DNA of 64,000 bases from Chitinophagaceae bacterium. Lineage in GTDB: Bacteria; Bacteroidota; Bacteroidia; Chitinophagales; Chitinophagaceae. The translations under genes were made by a program, and so were the position numbers. The DNA is taken from the NCBI GenBank assembly GCA_004028765.1, contig SAIX01000049.1, forward strand, positions 1-64,000, in the 5' to 3' direction. Below the pieces are notes generated by a model, which saw only the letters and a program-made list of their open reading frames with translations, was not told the DNA's origin and made no database searches. Positions 22,000 through 37,964 of this stretch are shown here, piece after piece (the first letter of the stretch is position 1; each line of letters opens with the position of its first letter).

Positions 22000-22031
22000 T
22001 TTGCCTGAAAACCTTTTGGGTATTAGCTTTG
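22000..22031 (+). promoter_or_regulatory. Bacteroidetes-type promoter for the his operon
   Basis: TTTG (22000-22003), 20-nt spacer, TAGCTTTG (22024-22031), exact match to TTTG/TAnnTTTG. Confidence 0.75.
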
Positions 22032-22038
22032 CCGCATC

Positions 22039-22089
22039 ATGAAAAGTTTTACGCACAAACATCACCATCATTTCTTACCCCGCGGGTAA
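22039..22089 (+). CDS. hisL: his operon leader peptide MKSFTHKHHHHFLPRG
   Basis: Direct translation gives 5 His in 16 codons, four consecutive (CAT CAC CAT CAT); upstream of hisG and followed by a terminator with an alternative pairing partner. Confidence 0.9.
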   Translation: MKSFTHKHHHHFLPRG

Positions 22090-22126
22090 GCTGTTGGTGT
22101 TTTGTGCAGGTCACAATAAAACATTA

Positions 22127-22155
22127 AAGGGCTTACTCCAGGGTAGGCCCTTTTT
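22127..22155 (+). terminator. his attenuator terminator
   Basis: AAGGGCTTAC-tccagg-GTAGGCCCTT (one G-U) followed by T tract; competing GGGTAAGC (22084-22091) / GCTTACTC (22131-22138) pairing. Confidence 0.88.
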
Positions 22156-31045: not shown

Positions 31046-31077
31046 TTTGTTTATCCAAACATTCTGCCCCAAATTTG
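31046..31077 (+). promoter_or_regulatory. Bacteroidetes-type promoter for the trp operon
   Basis: TTTG (31046-31049), 20-nt spacer, CAAATTTG (31070-31077), one mismatch to TAnnTTTG. Confidence 0.6.
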
Positions 31078-31111
31078 CCCTGTCATGAAACAAATAGCAG
31101 GGCAAAATTGG
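31069..31111. repeat. 13/14-matching inverted repeat around the trp leader start codon
   Basis: CCAAATTTGCCCTG (31069-31082), 15 nt, CAGGGCAAAATTGG (31098-31111). Confidence 0.75.
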
Positions 31112-31144
31112 TGGTGGCATTCAAACTCCGGTCGGGGATTGTAA
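31085..31144 (+). CDS. trpL: trp operon leader peptide MKQIAGQNWWWHSNSGRGL
   Basis: Direct translation shows three consecutive TGG codons; upstream of trpE and followed by a terminator. Confidence 0.92.
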   Translation: MKQIAGQNWWWHSNSGRGL

Positions 31145-31173
31145 TGGCATGCCAGTACGTTTGAATCATATTC

Positions 31174-31206
31174 AAAACCCCGACAATAAAATGTCGGGGT
31201 TTTTGT
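31174..31206 (+). terminator. trp attenuator terminator
   Basis: AAAACCCCGACA-ataaaa-TGTCGGGGTTTT perfect 12-bp stem plus T tract; competing GTCGGGG (31131-31137) / CCCCGAC (31178-31184). Confidence 0.92.
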
Positions 31207-31263: not shown

Positions 31264-32679
31264 ATGAAAAAGATCGAATTACAGACTGAATGCCGCAAGA
31301 TGCTGGCCGACCTGTTCACCCCCGTAGGCGTTTACCTGCGCGTGCGCGACCGTTTCCGCGATACGGTACTGCTCGAAAGCACCGATCACCACCAGGCGGA
31401 GAACAGTTATTCGTTTATCTGCATCAATGCCATCGCGGGTATCGAGATCAGTTCCAAAAAAAGTATCGAATTCAAATTGCCCGGGCAAAAACCGGAGCGT
31501 ATAGATATCAAAGATGTGGCTGCTGTGCCGGAACAGTTGTGGTCGTTTATGCAGCGCTTCGATGTGCATAAGCCATCGGTAAAAGAGGGCCGTTTTGCGC
31601 AGGGCCTGTTTGGTTATACCAGTTTTGATGCGGTACAGTTTTTCGATACCATCACCTTGCATACGGCTGCATCAACTGAACCTGCCATCCCATTGATCCG
31701 TTACAGGTTGTACCAGTATGTGATCGCTTTTAATCATTTCAAAGACGAACTCTATATCTGCGAAAACAGTTTGCCGGGCATCGAATCTGAACTCGCTGTT
31801 GTTGAATCGCTGATCAGGAGCAAAGATGTCCCGGTATTTCCTTTTAAGGCAAAGGGCAGTGAAACCTCCAATATGACCGACAGTGAATACCGGGAAATGG
31901 TGGAGAAAGGGATACGCCGCTGTATGCGTGGCGATGTTTTCCAGGTAGTGCTGAGCCGCCGCTTCCAGCAATCTTTTACCGGCGATGAATTCAATGTGTA
32001 CCGTTCGCTGCGCAGTGTGAACCCTTCCCCTTATCTTTTCTTTTTTGACTATGGCGATTATAAACTGATGGGCTCTTCTCCCGAGGCACAGCTCATTATT
32101 CAGAATGGGAAAGCGGTTGTACATCCCATCGCGGGAACTTTTAAAAGAACCGGTGATGATACACTTGACCAGCAGATGGCCGAAAAATTACTCAGCGATT
32201 CAAAAGAAAATGCAGAACACGTAATGCTCGTGGATCTTGCACGTAACGATCTCAGCCGTGCCTGTGAAGAAGTGGAGGTAAGTCATTACCGGCAGGTGCA
32301 GTATTACAGTCATGTGATCCACCTCGTTAGCGAAGTGGCCGGCAAAGTACGGGCTGGACAGAACCCGTTTGAACTGCTCGCCAAAACATTCCCTGCCGGG
32401 ACACTGAGTGGTGCGCCCAAATTCAAAGCGATGGAGATCATTGACGAATATGAACCAACCGCGCGCAGTTATTACGGGGGCGGAATCGGTTTTATTGGTT
32501 TTGATGGGACCTGTAACCATGCCATCATGATCCGCACGTTCCTTAGCAGGCACAATACACTGGTGTACCAGGCGGGAGCAGGTGTGGTGGCAGCCAGTGT
32601 CCCCGAAAATGAATTACAGGAAGTGAATAATAAGCTGAATGCATTGAAAAAAGCGATAGAGATCGCGGAAACGATTTAG
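31264..32679 (+). CDS. trpE: Anthranilate synthase component I
   Basis: VFQVVLSRRFQQSFTGDEFNVYRSLRSVNPSPYLFFFDYG, SPEAQLIIQNGKAVVHPIAGTFKRTGDD, PAGTLSGAPKFKAMEIIDEYEP. Confidence 0.96.
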   Translation: MKKIELQTECRKMLADLFTPVGVYLRVRDRFRDTVLLESTDHHQAENSYSFICINAIAGIEISSKKSIEFKLPGQKPERIDIKDVAAVPEQLWSFMQRFDVHKPSVKEGRFAQGLFGYTSFDAVQFFDTITLHTAASTEPAIPLIRYRLYQYVIAFNHFKDELYICENSLPGIESELAVVESLIRSKDVPVFPFKAKGSETSNMTDSEYREMVEKGIRRCMRGDVFQVVLSRRFQQSFTGDEFNVYRSLRSVNPSPYLFFFDYGDYKLMGSSPEAQLIIQNGKAVVHPIAGTFKRTGDDTLDQQMAEKLLSDSKENAEHVMLVDLARNDLSRACEEVEVSHYRQVQYYSHVIHLVSEVAGKVRAGQNPFELLAKTFPAGTLSGAPKFKAMEIIDEYEPTARSYYGGGIGFIGFDGTCNHAIMIRTFLSRHNTLVYQAGAGVVAASVPENELQEVNNKLNALKKAIEIAETI

Positions 32680-32758: not shown

Positions 32759-33388
32759 ATGAAAATTTTAGTATTTGATAATTACGATTCGTTCACCTAT
32801 AACCTGGTTCATTTGGTGGAAAAGATCACAAATGAGAAAGTGGATGTATTCCGCAACGATGAACTGCCGATGGAGAAGGTGAAAGTGTATGATAAGATCA
32901 TTCTTTCTCCCGGCCCAGGCATACCTTCTGAAGCCGGCATGTTATTGCCATTGATCCGTGAATACGCCGCCAGCAAATCGATACTCGGCGTATGCCTTGG
33001 TCACCAGGCAATCGGCGAAGCGTTTGGTGGTACATTGACAAACCTCTCTACGGTATTTCATGGAGTGGCAACGAAGATCAAAGTGATCGGTCATGAATCA
33101 AAGACGCTGGATCGAGAAAGTGCAACTCACCATTCACCATTCACGACTCACCACTCACCCAGTGTTTTCGAAAACCTGCCTGATGAATTGGAAGTGGGCC
33201 GTTACCATAGCTGGGTGGTGGATGAAAAAAATTTTCCTTCCGAATTGGAAATCACCGCAAGGGATGCAAATAATTATATCATGGCCTTACGGCATAAAAC
33301 ATACGATATACAGGGTGTGCAGTTCCACCCGGAAAGTGTATTGACCCCCGACGGAGAAAAAATGTTACGAAACTGGTTAACAAAATAA
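32759..33388 (+). CDS. trpG: Anthranilate synthase component II (glutamine amidotransferase) with in-frame repeat-derived insertion
   Basis: ILVFDNYDSFTYNLVHLVE, LSPGPGIP, ILGVCLGHQAIGEAFGG, GVQFHPESVLTPDGEKML; contains ESATHHSPFTTHHSPS. Confidence 0.96.
   Translation: MKILVFDNYDSFTYNLVHLVEKITNEKVDVFRNDELPMEKVKVYDKIILSPGPGIPSEAGMLLPLIREYAASKSILGVCLGHQAIGEAFGGTLTNLSTVFHGVATKIKVIGHESKTLDRESATHHSPFTTHHSPSVFENLPDELEVGRYHSWVVDEKNFPSELEITARDANNYIMALRHKTYDIQGVQFHPESVLTPDGEKMLRNWLTK
33125..33160. repeat. actcaccattcaccattcacgactcaccactcaccc repeat inside trpG
   Basis: Same unit family as the intergenic arrays at about 4.63, 4.87, 42.14 and 47.8 kb. Confidence 0.85.
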
Positions 33389-33390
33389 TT

Positions 33391-34383
33391 ATGAAAAAGA
33401 TCCTTCAATACTTATTTGAATACAAAACACTTTCCAGGGAAAAAGCAAAAGAAGTGTTGCTGAATATTTCCCGGGGCCAGTACAATGAGAGCGAGATATC
33501 TGCATTTATCACCGTATTCCTCATGCGCAGTATCACGATCGAAGAATTACAGGGTTTCAGGGATGCCCTGCTTGAACTTTGTGTAAAAACCGATCTGCAG
33601 GGACATAAAGTGATGGATATTGTTGGTACGGGCGGGGATGGGAAAAATACGTTTAATATTTCCACTTTGTCTTGTTTTATTGTGGCGGGCGCCGGACAAA
33701 AAGTAGCCAAGCATGGCAATTATGGTGCAACTTCTATCAGCGGTGCCTCGAATGTGATGGAACAACTGGGATATGTTTTTAAAAACGACAATGACCGCTT
33801 GCTTTCTGAACTCGAAAAAACCAATATCTGCTTTTTACACGCGCCCTTATTTCATCCGGCATTGAAAATTGTAGGCCCTATCCGGAAAAACCTGGGTGTG
33901 CGTACATTTTTCAATATGCTCGGCCCGATGGTAAACCCCGCAGTTCCTGCCTATCAACTGGTGGGTGTTTATAATCTTGAGATGGCACGGATCTATAACT
34001 ATCTCCTGCAGCAAACCGGCAACGCATTCACGATCATCCATAGCCTCGACGGATATGATGAAATATCTCTCACCGGCGATACCAAAGTGATCACCAATCA
34101 GGGGGAAAGGGTGATGACACCTGAGCAACTGGGTAAACGAATTGTTTCGCCCGAAGACATTTATGGCGGTAACTCAGTGGAAGATGCTGCAAAACTGTTT
34201 ACAAAAATCATCCGGGGCGAAGGCAGCTGGGCGCAGAATGCAGTGGTGCTCGCCAATGCGGCAATGGCATTGCATTGCACCAGCAATTACCCCGGATATG
34301 CCGAAGCTTATGATGCGGCAGTAGAAAGCCTCGAAAGCGGAAAAGCTTACCAGGCATTGCAAACTTTAATCAGCATGCAGTAA
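33391..34383 (+). CDS. trpD: Anthranilate phosphoribosyltransferase
   Basis: DIVGTGGDGKNTFNISTLSCFIVAGAGQKVAKHGNYGATSISGASNVMEQLG. Confidence 0.97.
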   Translation: MKKILQYLFEYKTLSREKAKEVLLNISRGQYNESEISAFITVFLMRSITIEELQGFRDALLELCVKTDLQGHKVMDIVGTGGDGKNTFNISTLSCFIVAGAGQKVAKHGNYGATSISGASNVMEQLGYVFKNDNDRLLSELEKTNICFLHAPLFHPALKIVGPIRKNLGVRTFFNMLGPMVNPAVPAYQLVGVYNLEMARIYNYLLQQTGNAFTIIHSLDGYDEISLTGDTKVITNQGERVMTPEQLGKRIVSPEDIYGGNSVEDAAKLFTKIIRGEGSWAQNAVVLANAAMALHCTSNYPGYAEAYDAAVESLESGKAYQALQTLISMQ

Positions 34384-34384
34384 T

Positions 34385-35170
34385 ATGAATATCCTTGATA
34401 CCATCATCGCGCGGAAAAAAGAAGAAGTGGCTTCACAGAAGCAACTGGTCAGTATTGCTGAACTGGAACAAAGGCCTTTGTTTCCGGCTGCGGCTTTATC
34501 GCTCAAAAAATTCCTGCTGGATGGAACACGTACAGGCATCATTGCAGAATTTAAACGTAAATCGCCCAGCAAGGGTGTCATCAACGATACAGCTTCTGTG
34601 GAGGAAGTAACTGCTGCTTATGCCAGCAACGGTGCATCCGGGATTTCTGTTCTTACGGATACTGATTTTTTCGGCGGATCATTGAACGACCTGCTGAAAG
34701 CCACGGGCACGGGTGTTCCTTTGCTGCGCAAAGATTTTATGATCGATGAATACCAGCTCGTGGAAGCAAAAGCCCATGGTGCTTCTGTGATCCTGCTGAT
34801 TGCCGCCTGCTTATCGCCCGAACGCGTGAAGCAACTGGCGGGTACGGCAAAACAGCTGGGACTTGAAGTATTGCTGGAAATACACAATGAAGAAGAACTG
34901 GAACATATCTGCGATTCGGTTGACCTGGTAGGTGTAAATAACCGCAACCTGAAAAATTTTGAAGTGAGTATCGATACTTCTTTATCACTGATCAACAGGA
35001 TCCCACGCGAAAAACCCGCGGTGGCCGAAAGTGGTATCAGTGATGTAGATACTATTGTAACTTTACGCCAGGCCGGTTTTAAAGGATTTCTCATTGGAGA
35101 AAATTTTATGAAACAGGCCAACCCTTCGATTGCTTTTACTGATTTCGTACATCAACTAAAAGCAAAATAA
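34385..35170 (+). CDS. trpC: Indole-3-glycerol phosphate synthase
   Basis: IIAEFKRKSPSKGVIN, GISVLTDTDFFGGSLNDL, LLRKDFMIDEYQ, VGVNNRNLKNFEV, AESGISD. Confidence 0.97.
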   Translation: MNILDTIIARKKEEVASQKQLVSIAELEQRPLFPAAALSLKKFLLDGTRTGIIAEFKRKSPSKGVINDTASVEEVTAAYASNGASGISVLTDTDFFGGSLNDLLKATGTGVPLLRKDFMIDEYQLVEAKAHGASVILLIAACLSPERVKQLAGTAKQLGLEVLLEIHNEEELEHICDSVDLVGVNNRNLKNFEVSIDTSLSLINRIPREKPAVAESGISDVDTIVTLRQAGFKGFLIGENFMKQANPSIAFTDFVHQLKAK

Positions 35171-35171
35171 C

Positions 35172-35819
35172 ATGCGGATCAAGGTATGTGGTATGACAAG
35201 CACCGAACAGGTTCTACAACTCGATGAAATGGGTGTGGAATTTGCGGGGTTTATCTTCTATCCCAAATCGCCCCGTTATGTGTACCGGTTTATGCCAAGG
35301 CCGGAGATCAAACGCATCCGCGGAAAAGGGATCAACAAAGTGGGGGTATTTGTAAATGCGCCTGTGGAAGAAGTACTGCAAACCGTTGACGACTGTGGCT
35401 TATACCTGGTTCAGCTCCATGGAGATGAAACGCCGAGGTATTGCGAGAAGATCGCGAATTATGTAACGGTGGTAAAAGCTTTCCGCCTGCGCGAGGAAGA
35501 CAATATCCCCTGGAAGATCAAAGATTACCAGGATATCGCGGATATGTTTCTTTTTGATACGGAAGGCGCAGGATATGGCGGAACCGGAAAAAAATTCAAT
35601 TGGGAGTTATTAAGAGGATTGAATATCGGTAAACCTTTTTTCCTGAGCGGAGGAATTGACCCCGCGGATGCAGGGAAACTGGTGGAGTTCACAAAAGACC
35701 CTGTTGCCAAAGACCTTTTCTCTATTGATGTGAACAGCAAATTTGAATTATCACCCGGGGTAAAGGACATGGAAAAACTGAGAACTTTTGTCCCGGAAAT
35801 AAAAATGATCGGAAAATGA
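35172..35819 (+). CDS. trpF: Phosphoribosylanthranilate isomerase
   Basis: [60 protein letters not shown]. Confidence 0.96.
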
Positions 35820-37012
35820 CAACAACCCAGACATACCAGCGGCCCGATGCGCAGGGCTATTACGGGCTTTTCGGAGGCGCCTATATCCCTGAAATGCTGC
35901 ACCGCAATGTGGAAGAACTGCGTGATCGTTATCTCGATATCATGTATGAAGCTTCTTTTCAGAAAGAGTTCCGGCAGTTGCTGAAAGATTATGTGGGAAG
36001 GCCCACGCCTTTGTTCCTTGCTGAAAGACTGAGCAAAGAATTCAATGCAGCTATCTACCTGAAACGTGAAGACCTCTGTCATACAGGTGCACATAAGATC
36101 AACAATACCATCGGCCAGATTTTACTGGCGCGTAAACTCGGTAAGAAACGCATCATCGCTGAAACCGGGGCCGGCCAGCACGGTGTGGCAACAGCTACAG
36201 TTTGCGCATTAAAAGGAATAGAATGCATCGTATACATGGGCGAAAAAGATATTGAACGGCAGGCGCCCAATGTAGCAAGGATGAAAATGCTGGGTGCAAA
36301 AGTAATTCCTGCCACCAGCGGAAGTAAAACATTGAAAGACGCCACCAATGAAGCTATCCGCGACTGGATCAATAACCCGGTGGATACACATTATATCATC
36401 GGCAGTGTGGTGGGCCCGCATCCTTACCCGGATATGGTGGCGCGTTTTCAGAGTGTGATCAGCGAAGAGACGCGCTGGCAGTTAAAAGAAAAAACCGGCA
36501 GCGAATTACCAACGCATGTGATTGCATGTGTAGGGGGCGGCAGCAATGCAGCAGGCGCTTTTTATCATTTCCTCGATGAATTATCTGTAAAACTTGTTGC
36601 CGTAGAAGCAGCAGGGCATGGTGTTAACAGTGGTATGAGTGCAGCAACTTCACAACTGGGTAAACCCGGTATCCTGCATGGAAGCAAGAGCCTTGTAATG
36701 CAGACTGCGGATGGACAGGTAGTGGAGCCACACAGTATTTCTGCCGGGCTTGATTATCCCGGTATCGGTCCGCTGCATGCACATTTGTATGACAGCGGCA
36801 GAGGTACTTTTATGAGTGCAACAGATAAAGAAGCATTAAGGGCTGCATTCCATGTGAGTAAAACGGAAGGCATTATTCCGGCGCTGGAAACCGCACATGC
36901 ATTTGCGGTACTCGGGAAACTGGGTTTGCAGGAAACAGATAAAATCGTGATCTGTTTGAGCGGCAGGGGTGATAAAGACCTCGCTACTTATATGAATGCA
37001 ATGGATTTGTAA
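35816..37012 (+). CDS. trpB: Tryptophan synthase beta subunit
   Basis: [76 protein letters not shown]; 4-nt overlap with trpF. Confidence 0.98.
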
Positions 37013-37119
37013 ATGCATTTGTTGTTTGTAGTGCGCCAGTGATGGTCAGGTTTCGCTGTTGTTGGTCGCCTGACCAACAACTTTGATAAAAAATAATTAC
37101 ACCAGTTGATGAAAATGAT

Positions 37120-37890
37120 ATGAGCAGGATCAAAACAGTATTTGAAAAGAAAAAAAACAGGGTGCTCAACGTGTATTGCACTGCAGGGTATCCTGAACTG
37201 CAAAGCACGCTTACCATCATGCAGGCCCTGCAGGAAAACGGAGCCGACCTTATTGAACTGGGCATGCCTTACAGCGATCCGCTCGCCGATGGCCCGGTAA
37301 TACAGGCCAGCAGTTCAAAAGCACTGGCAAATGGTATGACGATCGCCGCACTGTTTGAACAACTGAAAAATTTCCGTTCAGTGATCAATATCCCTGTGAT
37401 CCTGATGGGCTATATGAACCCCGTTCTGCAATATGGTTTTGAAAAATTCTGTGCAGATGCTGCTGCGCTTGGTATCGATGGACTGATATTGCCCGATTTA
37501 CCGGAATTTGAATTTGAAACAGAATATGGCCCCATCATTAAAAAATACGGGCTCGATTTTATTTTCCTGGTAACACCCGAAACTTCTGCCGAAAGGATAC
37601 AAAAACTGGATTTATTAAGCAGTGGTTTTTTATATGCGGTGAGTTCATCAGCCACAACGGGCAAAGACAAAGATTTTACTGCGGTGGAAGTATACCTGGA
37701 AAGGCTTCAGTCAATGCAGTTGCAAAACCCAGTGCTGGTAGGTTTCGGTATCAAAGACAAAACCACATTTGATACCGCCTGTAAATTTGCCAACGGCGCC
37801 ATCATCGGTACGGCTTATATCAAAATGCTTGAAAACGAAACAGACATAAAAAAAGGAACGAAATCGTTCCTTGATTCGGTATTAAACTGA
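37120..37890 (+). CDS. trpA: Tryptophan synthase alpha subunit
   Basis: GADLIELGMPYSDPLADGPVIQASSSKAL, LMGYMNPVLQYG, GLILPDLPEFE. Confidence 0.96.
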   Translation: MSRIKTVFEKKKNRVLNVYCTAGYPELQSTLTIMQALQENGADLIELGMPYSDPLADGPVIQASSSKALANGMTIAALFEQLKNFRSVINIPVILMGYMNPVLQYGFEKFCADAAALGIDGLILPDLPEFEFETEYGPIIKKYGLDFIFLVTPETSAERIQKLDLLSSGFLYAVSSSATTGKDKDFTAVEVYLERLQSMQLQNPVLVGFGIKDKTTFDTACKFANGAIIGTAYIKMLENETDIKKGTKSFLDSVLN

Positions 37891-37891
37891 G

Positions 37892-37964
37892 AGCGACAAA
37901 CGGGACTCGAACCCGCCACCTTCAGTTTGGGAAACTGATACTCTACCGGATGAGCTATTGTCGC
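37892..37964 (-). tRNA. tRNA-Gly (anticodon CCC)
   Basis: Reverse complement GCGACAATAGCTCATCCGGTAGAGTATCAGTTTCCCAAACTGAAGGTGGCGGGTTCGAGTCCCGTTTGTCGCT folds as a cloverleaf; loop TTCCCAA; no encoded CCA. Confidence 0.93.

Follow-up and report, generated by a model that had tools for sequence, protein, structure and literature searches.

The segment ahead of trpE in a Chitinophagaceae bacterium (Bacteroidota) is very probably a classical trp-type transcription attenuator operated by the ribosome, with a full set of 1:2, 2:3 and 3:4 helices, as judged from its sequence, covariation and predicted folds. It heads a trpEGDCFBA operon that we recognized from the ORF list and an NCBIfam scan of the window, the whole 64,000-nucleotide stretch of DNA that was analyzed (Table 1). 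Attenuation by a trp leader is textbook knowledge: in E. coli, a leader ORF with adjacent Trp codons, the 1:2, 2:3 and 3:4 helices and a terminator lie ahead of trpE. Checked at the window, the locus has this anatomy in common with the E. coli trp operon attenuator (trpL; Rfam Trp_leader). A short ORF with consecutive Trp codons lies upstream of the trp genes, and an intrinsic terminator separates it from the first structural gene. Sequence, covariation and folding point to a mutually exclusive antiterminator that is suitably placed relative to the ribosome, and a 1:2 hairpin would favor termination without translation, with support weaker than that for the terminator.

Table 1. Promoter, leader and operon features at the trp locus, in window coordinates.
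Feature	Position	Strand	Evidence
-33 promoter element TTTG, Bacteroidota sigma-A type	31046..31049	+	A-tract and TTTG/TTGG conserved at the same distance in aligned relatives
-7 promoter element CAAATTTG (consensus among relatives CATATTTG)	31070..31077	+	
Predicted transcription start (+/-1-2 nt), 5' UTR ~3 nt	31082	+	Box position in F. psychrophilum
Leader peptide ORF MKQIAGQNWWWHSNSGRGL (ATG at 31085, TAA at 31142-31144)	31085..31144	+	Read in the sequence; kept in 90/92 Chitinophagaceae trpE loci
1:2 hairpin (anti-antiterminator), Trp/His codons with post-stop bases	31107..31156	+	MFE fold, consensus fold, pair counts
TGG TGG TGG, three consecutive Trp codons; putative ribosome stall site and 5' strand of the 1:2 hairpin	31109..31117	+	
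Antiterminator 5' strand GTCGGGG (region 2)	31131..31137	+	Helix comparison, folding
Intrinsic terminator hairpin (3:4), 12 bp, then U-rich tract to about 31210	31174..31203	+	
Antiterminator 3' strand CCCCGAC (region 3), shared with the terminator 5' arm	31178..31184	+	
trpE, anthranilate synthase component I, first structural gene	31264..32679	+	TIGR00564 match and operon position
trpG, trpD, trpC, trpF, trpB, trpA (putatively regulated operon)	32759..37890	+	NCBIfam scan, ORF list

The leader ORF and its conservation

When we re-read the window, every letter and coordinate in the original prediction proved correct, and the WWW-containing leader ORF that it had placed upstream of trpE is real. 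Counting both strands, the window has 1135 ORFs that begin with ATG and span 8-45 codons; WWW occurs in this one alone. A scan for promoter boxes followed by an ATG, a short ORF and a terminator returned two matches window-wide, the trp leader and a His leader. The best NCBIfam model for the first structural gene is TIGR00564 (trpE_most; E 6.6e-124), at 414 bits against a cut-off of 517.7 bits; we name the gene trpE because it heads the operon and trpG to trpA come after it. At the far end, a tRNA-Gly (CCC) gene lies on the minus strand at 37891-37964, between plus-strand trpA and hisH.

We compared 92 trpE loci, comprising the window, 11 loci of the same family and 80 relatives fetched from genome contigs, nearly all of them Chitinophagaceae or Bacteroidota MAGs. 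Leader and terminator are present in 90; in the other two, no leader was seen (L026) or the contig breaks off 1 nt short of trpE (L075). The Trp run is WWW in 76 leaders, WW in 6, a single W in 7 and WWWW in 1, and the usual peptide consists of M, 6 to 9 residues and then WWWHTNSxRGL or WWWHTNSSGVL. Loci L061, L062, L064, L065, L067 and L068 form a clade with a single Trp codon (for example MKLNQTNNGWHIIPFQG) that retains GGGG and the terminator. A single Trp codon is a weak sensor and, in this clade, counts against the attenuator reading.

The codons that follow WWW are strongly biased among synonyms: Asn is encoded by AAC 53 times and by AAT twice, and Ser by TCT or TCC. This skew implies a constraint at the RNA level, which we attribute to the RNA pairings described below. 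The G-run is likewise kept as RNA, because it falls in each of the leader's three frames (39, 18 and 10 loci).

Beyond the family, a leader with at least two Trp codons lies close upstream of trpE in 82 of 89 genomes sampled across the phylum, 11 of which are Chitinophagaceae members already counted among the 92 loci; TGGTGGTGG occurs in 68 of these 82. If these leaders act as their sequences suggest, trp leader-peptide attenuation upstream of trpE would be nearly universal among the sampled Bacteroidota. A model built from the 1:2 and 3:4 structure recovered the element from 109 of 150 genomes of the family (E<=0.01; 1.1e-13 for the window), of which the weakest matches, with E near 1e-3 to 1e-2, are probably due to chance. 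Searching the genome for a TTTG-ATG-TGGTGG pattern was too loose for defining a regulon.

Promoter and predicted start of the message

In 44 loci anchored at the leader ATG, the only conserved upstream blocks are a -33 block (A-tract and TTTG) and a -7 block (CATATTTG); from -150 to -50 no block is conserved and the information content is flat. The promoter consensus in Bacteroidota is TTTG/TAnnTTTG (PMC7366714). The TTTG/TTCG box ends 2-9 nt before the leader ATG in 85 of 90 loci, at 7 nt in 50 of them. Our choice of boxes required TTTG or TTCG near the ATG; neither the A within the box nor the -33 block was selected for. A occupies the second position of the -7 box in 99% of the relatives.

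Transcription start data from Flavobacterium psychrophilum place the -7 box at -12 to -5 (PMC9723704), from which the length of the 5' UTR follows as the box-to-ATG distance minus 4. This predicts a 5' UTR of some 0-5 nt at 84-85 of the 90 loci and of 3 nt in the window, where the leader ATG thus seems to lie nearly at the first base of a messenger predicted to be near-leaderless. At one locus, a distance of 2 would put the start inside the codon, and the box or the start codon is probably misread there. Short distances recur in families f3 and f4 (4-10 nt), are mixed in f5 (1-18) and give way to 31-43 nt in f9. Two leaders of family f10, from two genera (L108 and L112), lie directly 3' of a same-strand tRNA-Pro (CGG) gene, with no promoter box seen ahead of the leader ATG.

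Other amino-acid leaders were also found. Upstream of hisG, the window holds a His attenuator with a -7 box (TAGCTTTG) at 22024-22031, the leader MKSFTHKHHHHFLPRG at 22039-22089 and a terminator at 22126-22153; its 7-nt spacing from box to ATG equals that of the trp leader. An HHH leader precedes hisG in 27 of 29 family loci, 20 of the 27 with a spacing of 4-10 nt. A search at ilvD/ilvB found a branched-chain leader (MFRKAINNVISTITVITVIVIIIPALHGG) and a terminator upstream of ilv genes (L199:2127; G000:C76, about 15626), and there the nearest promoter-like box is weak and farther away, ~17 nt from the ATG.

We lean toward the view that, in Chitinophagaceae and several sister families, trp and his attenuator leaders start ~0-6 nt from the first base of the transcript, with leaderless loading of the ribosome directly behind RNA polymerase. 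If true, this would amount to a lineage-wide means of coupling translation with transcription in a phylum where Shine-Dalgarno sequences are hardly used. Coupling would rely on leaderless initiation where leaderless messages and very short 5' UTRs are reported to be rare, at 5.5% leaderless mRNAs in F. psychrophilum (PMC9723704) and about 3.7% of 5' UTRs below 10 nt in B. thetaiotaomicron (PMC7366714). The predicted near-leaderless layout raises a testable question: does attenuation in such a phylum rely on leaderless ribosome loading?

An inverted repeat of ~14 bp (CCAAATTTGCCCTG / CAGGGCAAAATTGG, 31069-31111) surrounds the -7 box and the leader start. The transcript might therefore begin further upstream and carry an ordinary 5' UTR in which the repeat folds into a hairpin that hides the start codon, and a 170-nt fold from 31046 does use this hairpin (z = -5.06). 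We consider such an arrangement unlikely and rejected the start-codon hairpin, because the left arm of the repeat falls within the -7 box, one of the sole two conserved upstream blocks, and the repeat is missing in locus L084 of the same genus.

Competing helices and the proposed switch

The 12-bp terminator that had been described as perfect is real. Its 12 pairs are followed by TGTTTTTG, and a terminator hairpin, with a median stability of -17.1 kcal/mol, occurs in 90 of 90 leaders, beginning 28-50 nt past the stop codon.

To evaluate the antiterminator, we compared the best ungapped helix between the leader tail and the 5' arm of the terminator with dinucleotide shuffles. Anchored segments were used for this purpose because, for the SGVL group, the MAFFT alignment (A1) puts the G-run one column out of place. 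A 2:3 helix of at least 6 bp forms in 73 of 90 loci and beats the shuffles (p<=0.05) in 51, compared to 4.5 expected. In 76 of 90 loci, its 5' strand begins 12-17 nt downstream of the final Trp codon, just past the position of a stalled ribosome. Outside the GGGG:CCCC core, the helix is short in many loci, and in 39 of 90 it is no better than shuffles. Bases flanking the core pair better with their own partners than after permutation of the partners, with only 5 of 5000 permutations as exceptions; this control ignores relatedness.

Compensated changes convert GGGG/CCCC into GAGG/CCTC in L033, L048 and L052 and into AGGG/CCCT in L055. The whole helix is replaced in L043, L045 and L047 (for example, TGTGTCG/CGACACA in L045), in L063 (TTGTGCCG/CGGCATAA) and in the Chitinophaga loci L076, L078 and L080 (GCTGTGTA/TACACAGC). 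Position, conservation, covariation, compensated changes and folding all support the original prediction that GTCGGGG pairs with CCCCGAC as an antiterminator.

In the window, the 1:2 hairpin is the minimum free energy fold of the free RNA before region 3 is made, and its inner stem joins CTCC (31126-31129) to GGGG (31134-31137). Across the relatives, Trp and His codons pair with post-stop bases (median z of -2.0; p<=0.05 in 51 of 90 loci), and the consensus fold places ACAA with UUGU and CUCC with GGGG inside the hairpin. With 1:2 and 3:4 taken together, 95.0% of cells are paired; shuffling brings this to 91.1% (0 of 500 shuffles) and sliding to 51% at the highest. In helix 1, variation is confined to one side, as the invariant Trp codons would lead one to expect. 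An extra 8-bp helix between ATTCAAAC (31119-31126) and GTTTGAAT (31159-31166), which had been proposed as a pause or competitor, is present in the window and not conserved, and we rejected it; the conserved competitor is the 1:2 hairpin, in which the Trp and following codons pair with the post-stop region.

Folded step by step, the window's leader adopts the 1:2 hairpin first; covering bases through 31127 gives the antiterminator, and covering bases through 31154 gives the terminator. Once the RNA has reached full length, the terminator has the greater stability even if region 1 is covered (-26.2 kcal/mol), so antitermination must depend on kinetics. A kinetic choice between folds also operates in the E. 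coli trp attenuator.

From these pairings, we infer a response to tryptophan through ribosome stalling and coupling of ribosome and polymerase. RNA polymerase would start at about 31082, a few nucleotides before the leader AUG, and a ribosome would load on the (nearly) leaderless message. With ample charged tRNA-Trp, the ribosome would pass WWW, reach the stop codon and cover region 2, leaving region 3 to pair with region 4 as the terminator. When charged tRNA-Trp is scarce, it would stall on WWW, covering region 1 and blocking the 1:2 hairpin; region 2 would then pair with region 3 before region 4 is made, and trpEGDCFBA would be transcribed. Without any ribosome, the 1:2 hairpin would form, hold region 2 through CTCC:GGGG and lead to termination. 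The idea that a stalled ribosome frees GTCGGGG and one at the stop codon covers it fits the position, conservation, covariation and stepwise folding of this segment.

The terminator might instead merely dampen expression, or end a small RNA or peptide made for its own sake, as with rnTrpL/peTrpL of Sinorhizobium, without any control by tryptophan. Products of trpL-type leaders do act in trans in S. meliloti (PMC7298713), and a terminated leader RNA with a conserved peptide of 14-21 aa would be made in rich medium. However, the 2:3 and 1:2 pairings, sensible only for switching, are conserved and compensated, and RNA pairing explains the conservation after WWW, where the G-run falls in all three frames. 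We therefore regard a leader devoid of tryptophan control as highly improbable; its RNA or peptide may have an additional role in trans besides attenuation. A riboswitch, a T-box-like tRNA-binding element or a TRAP-like protein-controlled attenuator with an incidental ORF would also account for leader structure and an intrinsic terminator upstream of trpE, yet is scarcely credible because the Trp-codon ORF is the most constant part, held in frame, start, stop and spacing while the remainder of the leader varies considerably, and because no T-box or trp-related family reached threshold in the Rfam scan of the window.

Relation to known leaders

The ribosome-mediated attenuator proposed here is of a known kind, with a near-leaderless leader ORF as its one mildly unusual, predicted trait. 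Bacteroidetes/Chlorobi are reportedly listed by Vitreschak et al. (2004) among the groups with candidate attenuators, and earlier reports of the leader in the Chitinophagaceae group may exist, our literature search having covered open-licence papers. Compared to E. coli trpL, the window's leader has three Trp codons rather than two, a region 2 that lies mostly inside the ORF tail, a predicted 5' UTR of ~3 nt, a Bacteroidota promoter and no Rfam match. The trpL of S. meliloti is leaderless, in that its RNA begins with the trpL ATG, and it attenuates trpE(G) (PMC7298713); that organism is an Alphaproteobacterium with a different promoter, and its start was measured whereas ours is predicted. Within the same phylum as the window, a paper on F. 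psychrophilum reports 'strong clues' that leader peptides precede amino-acid operons; its main text makes no mention of tryptophan (PMC9723704).

No Rfam model reached threshold for the window's trp leader. Sub-threshold matches (ncr1175, rnk, His_leader and others; best E 0.0037), far below gathering scores, were dismissed as chance matches to the terminator hairpin. The Bacteroid-trp RNA motif (RF01692), described by Weinberg et al. in 2010 (PMC2864571), had no match at its gathering score (49 bits) in the window or in genome G000, and was unlisted for the window even at E<=10. Attenuation of trp genes would thereby extend to a group covered by no Rfam model.

RF01692 likewise belongs to trp operons of Bacteroidota, and the members we recovered have a terminator and leaders of the type MRTILVNTYWWWHSVQLTRS; it represents this kind of element in certain other families of the phylum. 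Unlike the window's leader, most of its leaders that show a -7 box lie ~15-25 nt beyond it. Matches occur in 6 of 149 class genomes, from families f5, f11 and f12, with zero in the window's family. In families f11 and f12, no leader was seen beside trpE; the matches in G348, G238 and G352 lie ~0.7-1.4 kb further upstream, and these contain Trp-codon leaders.
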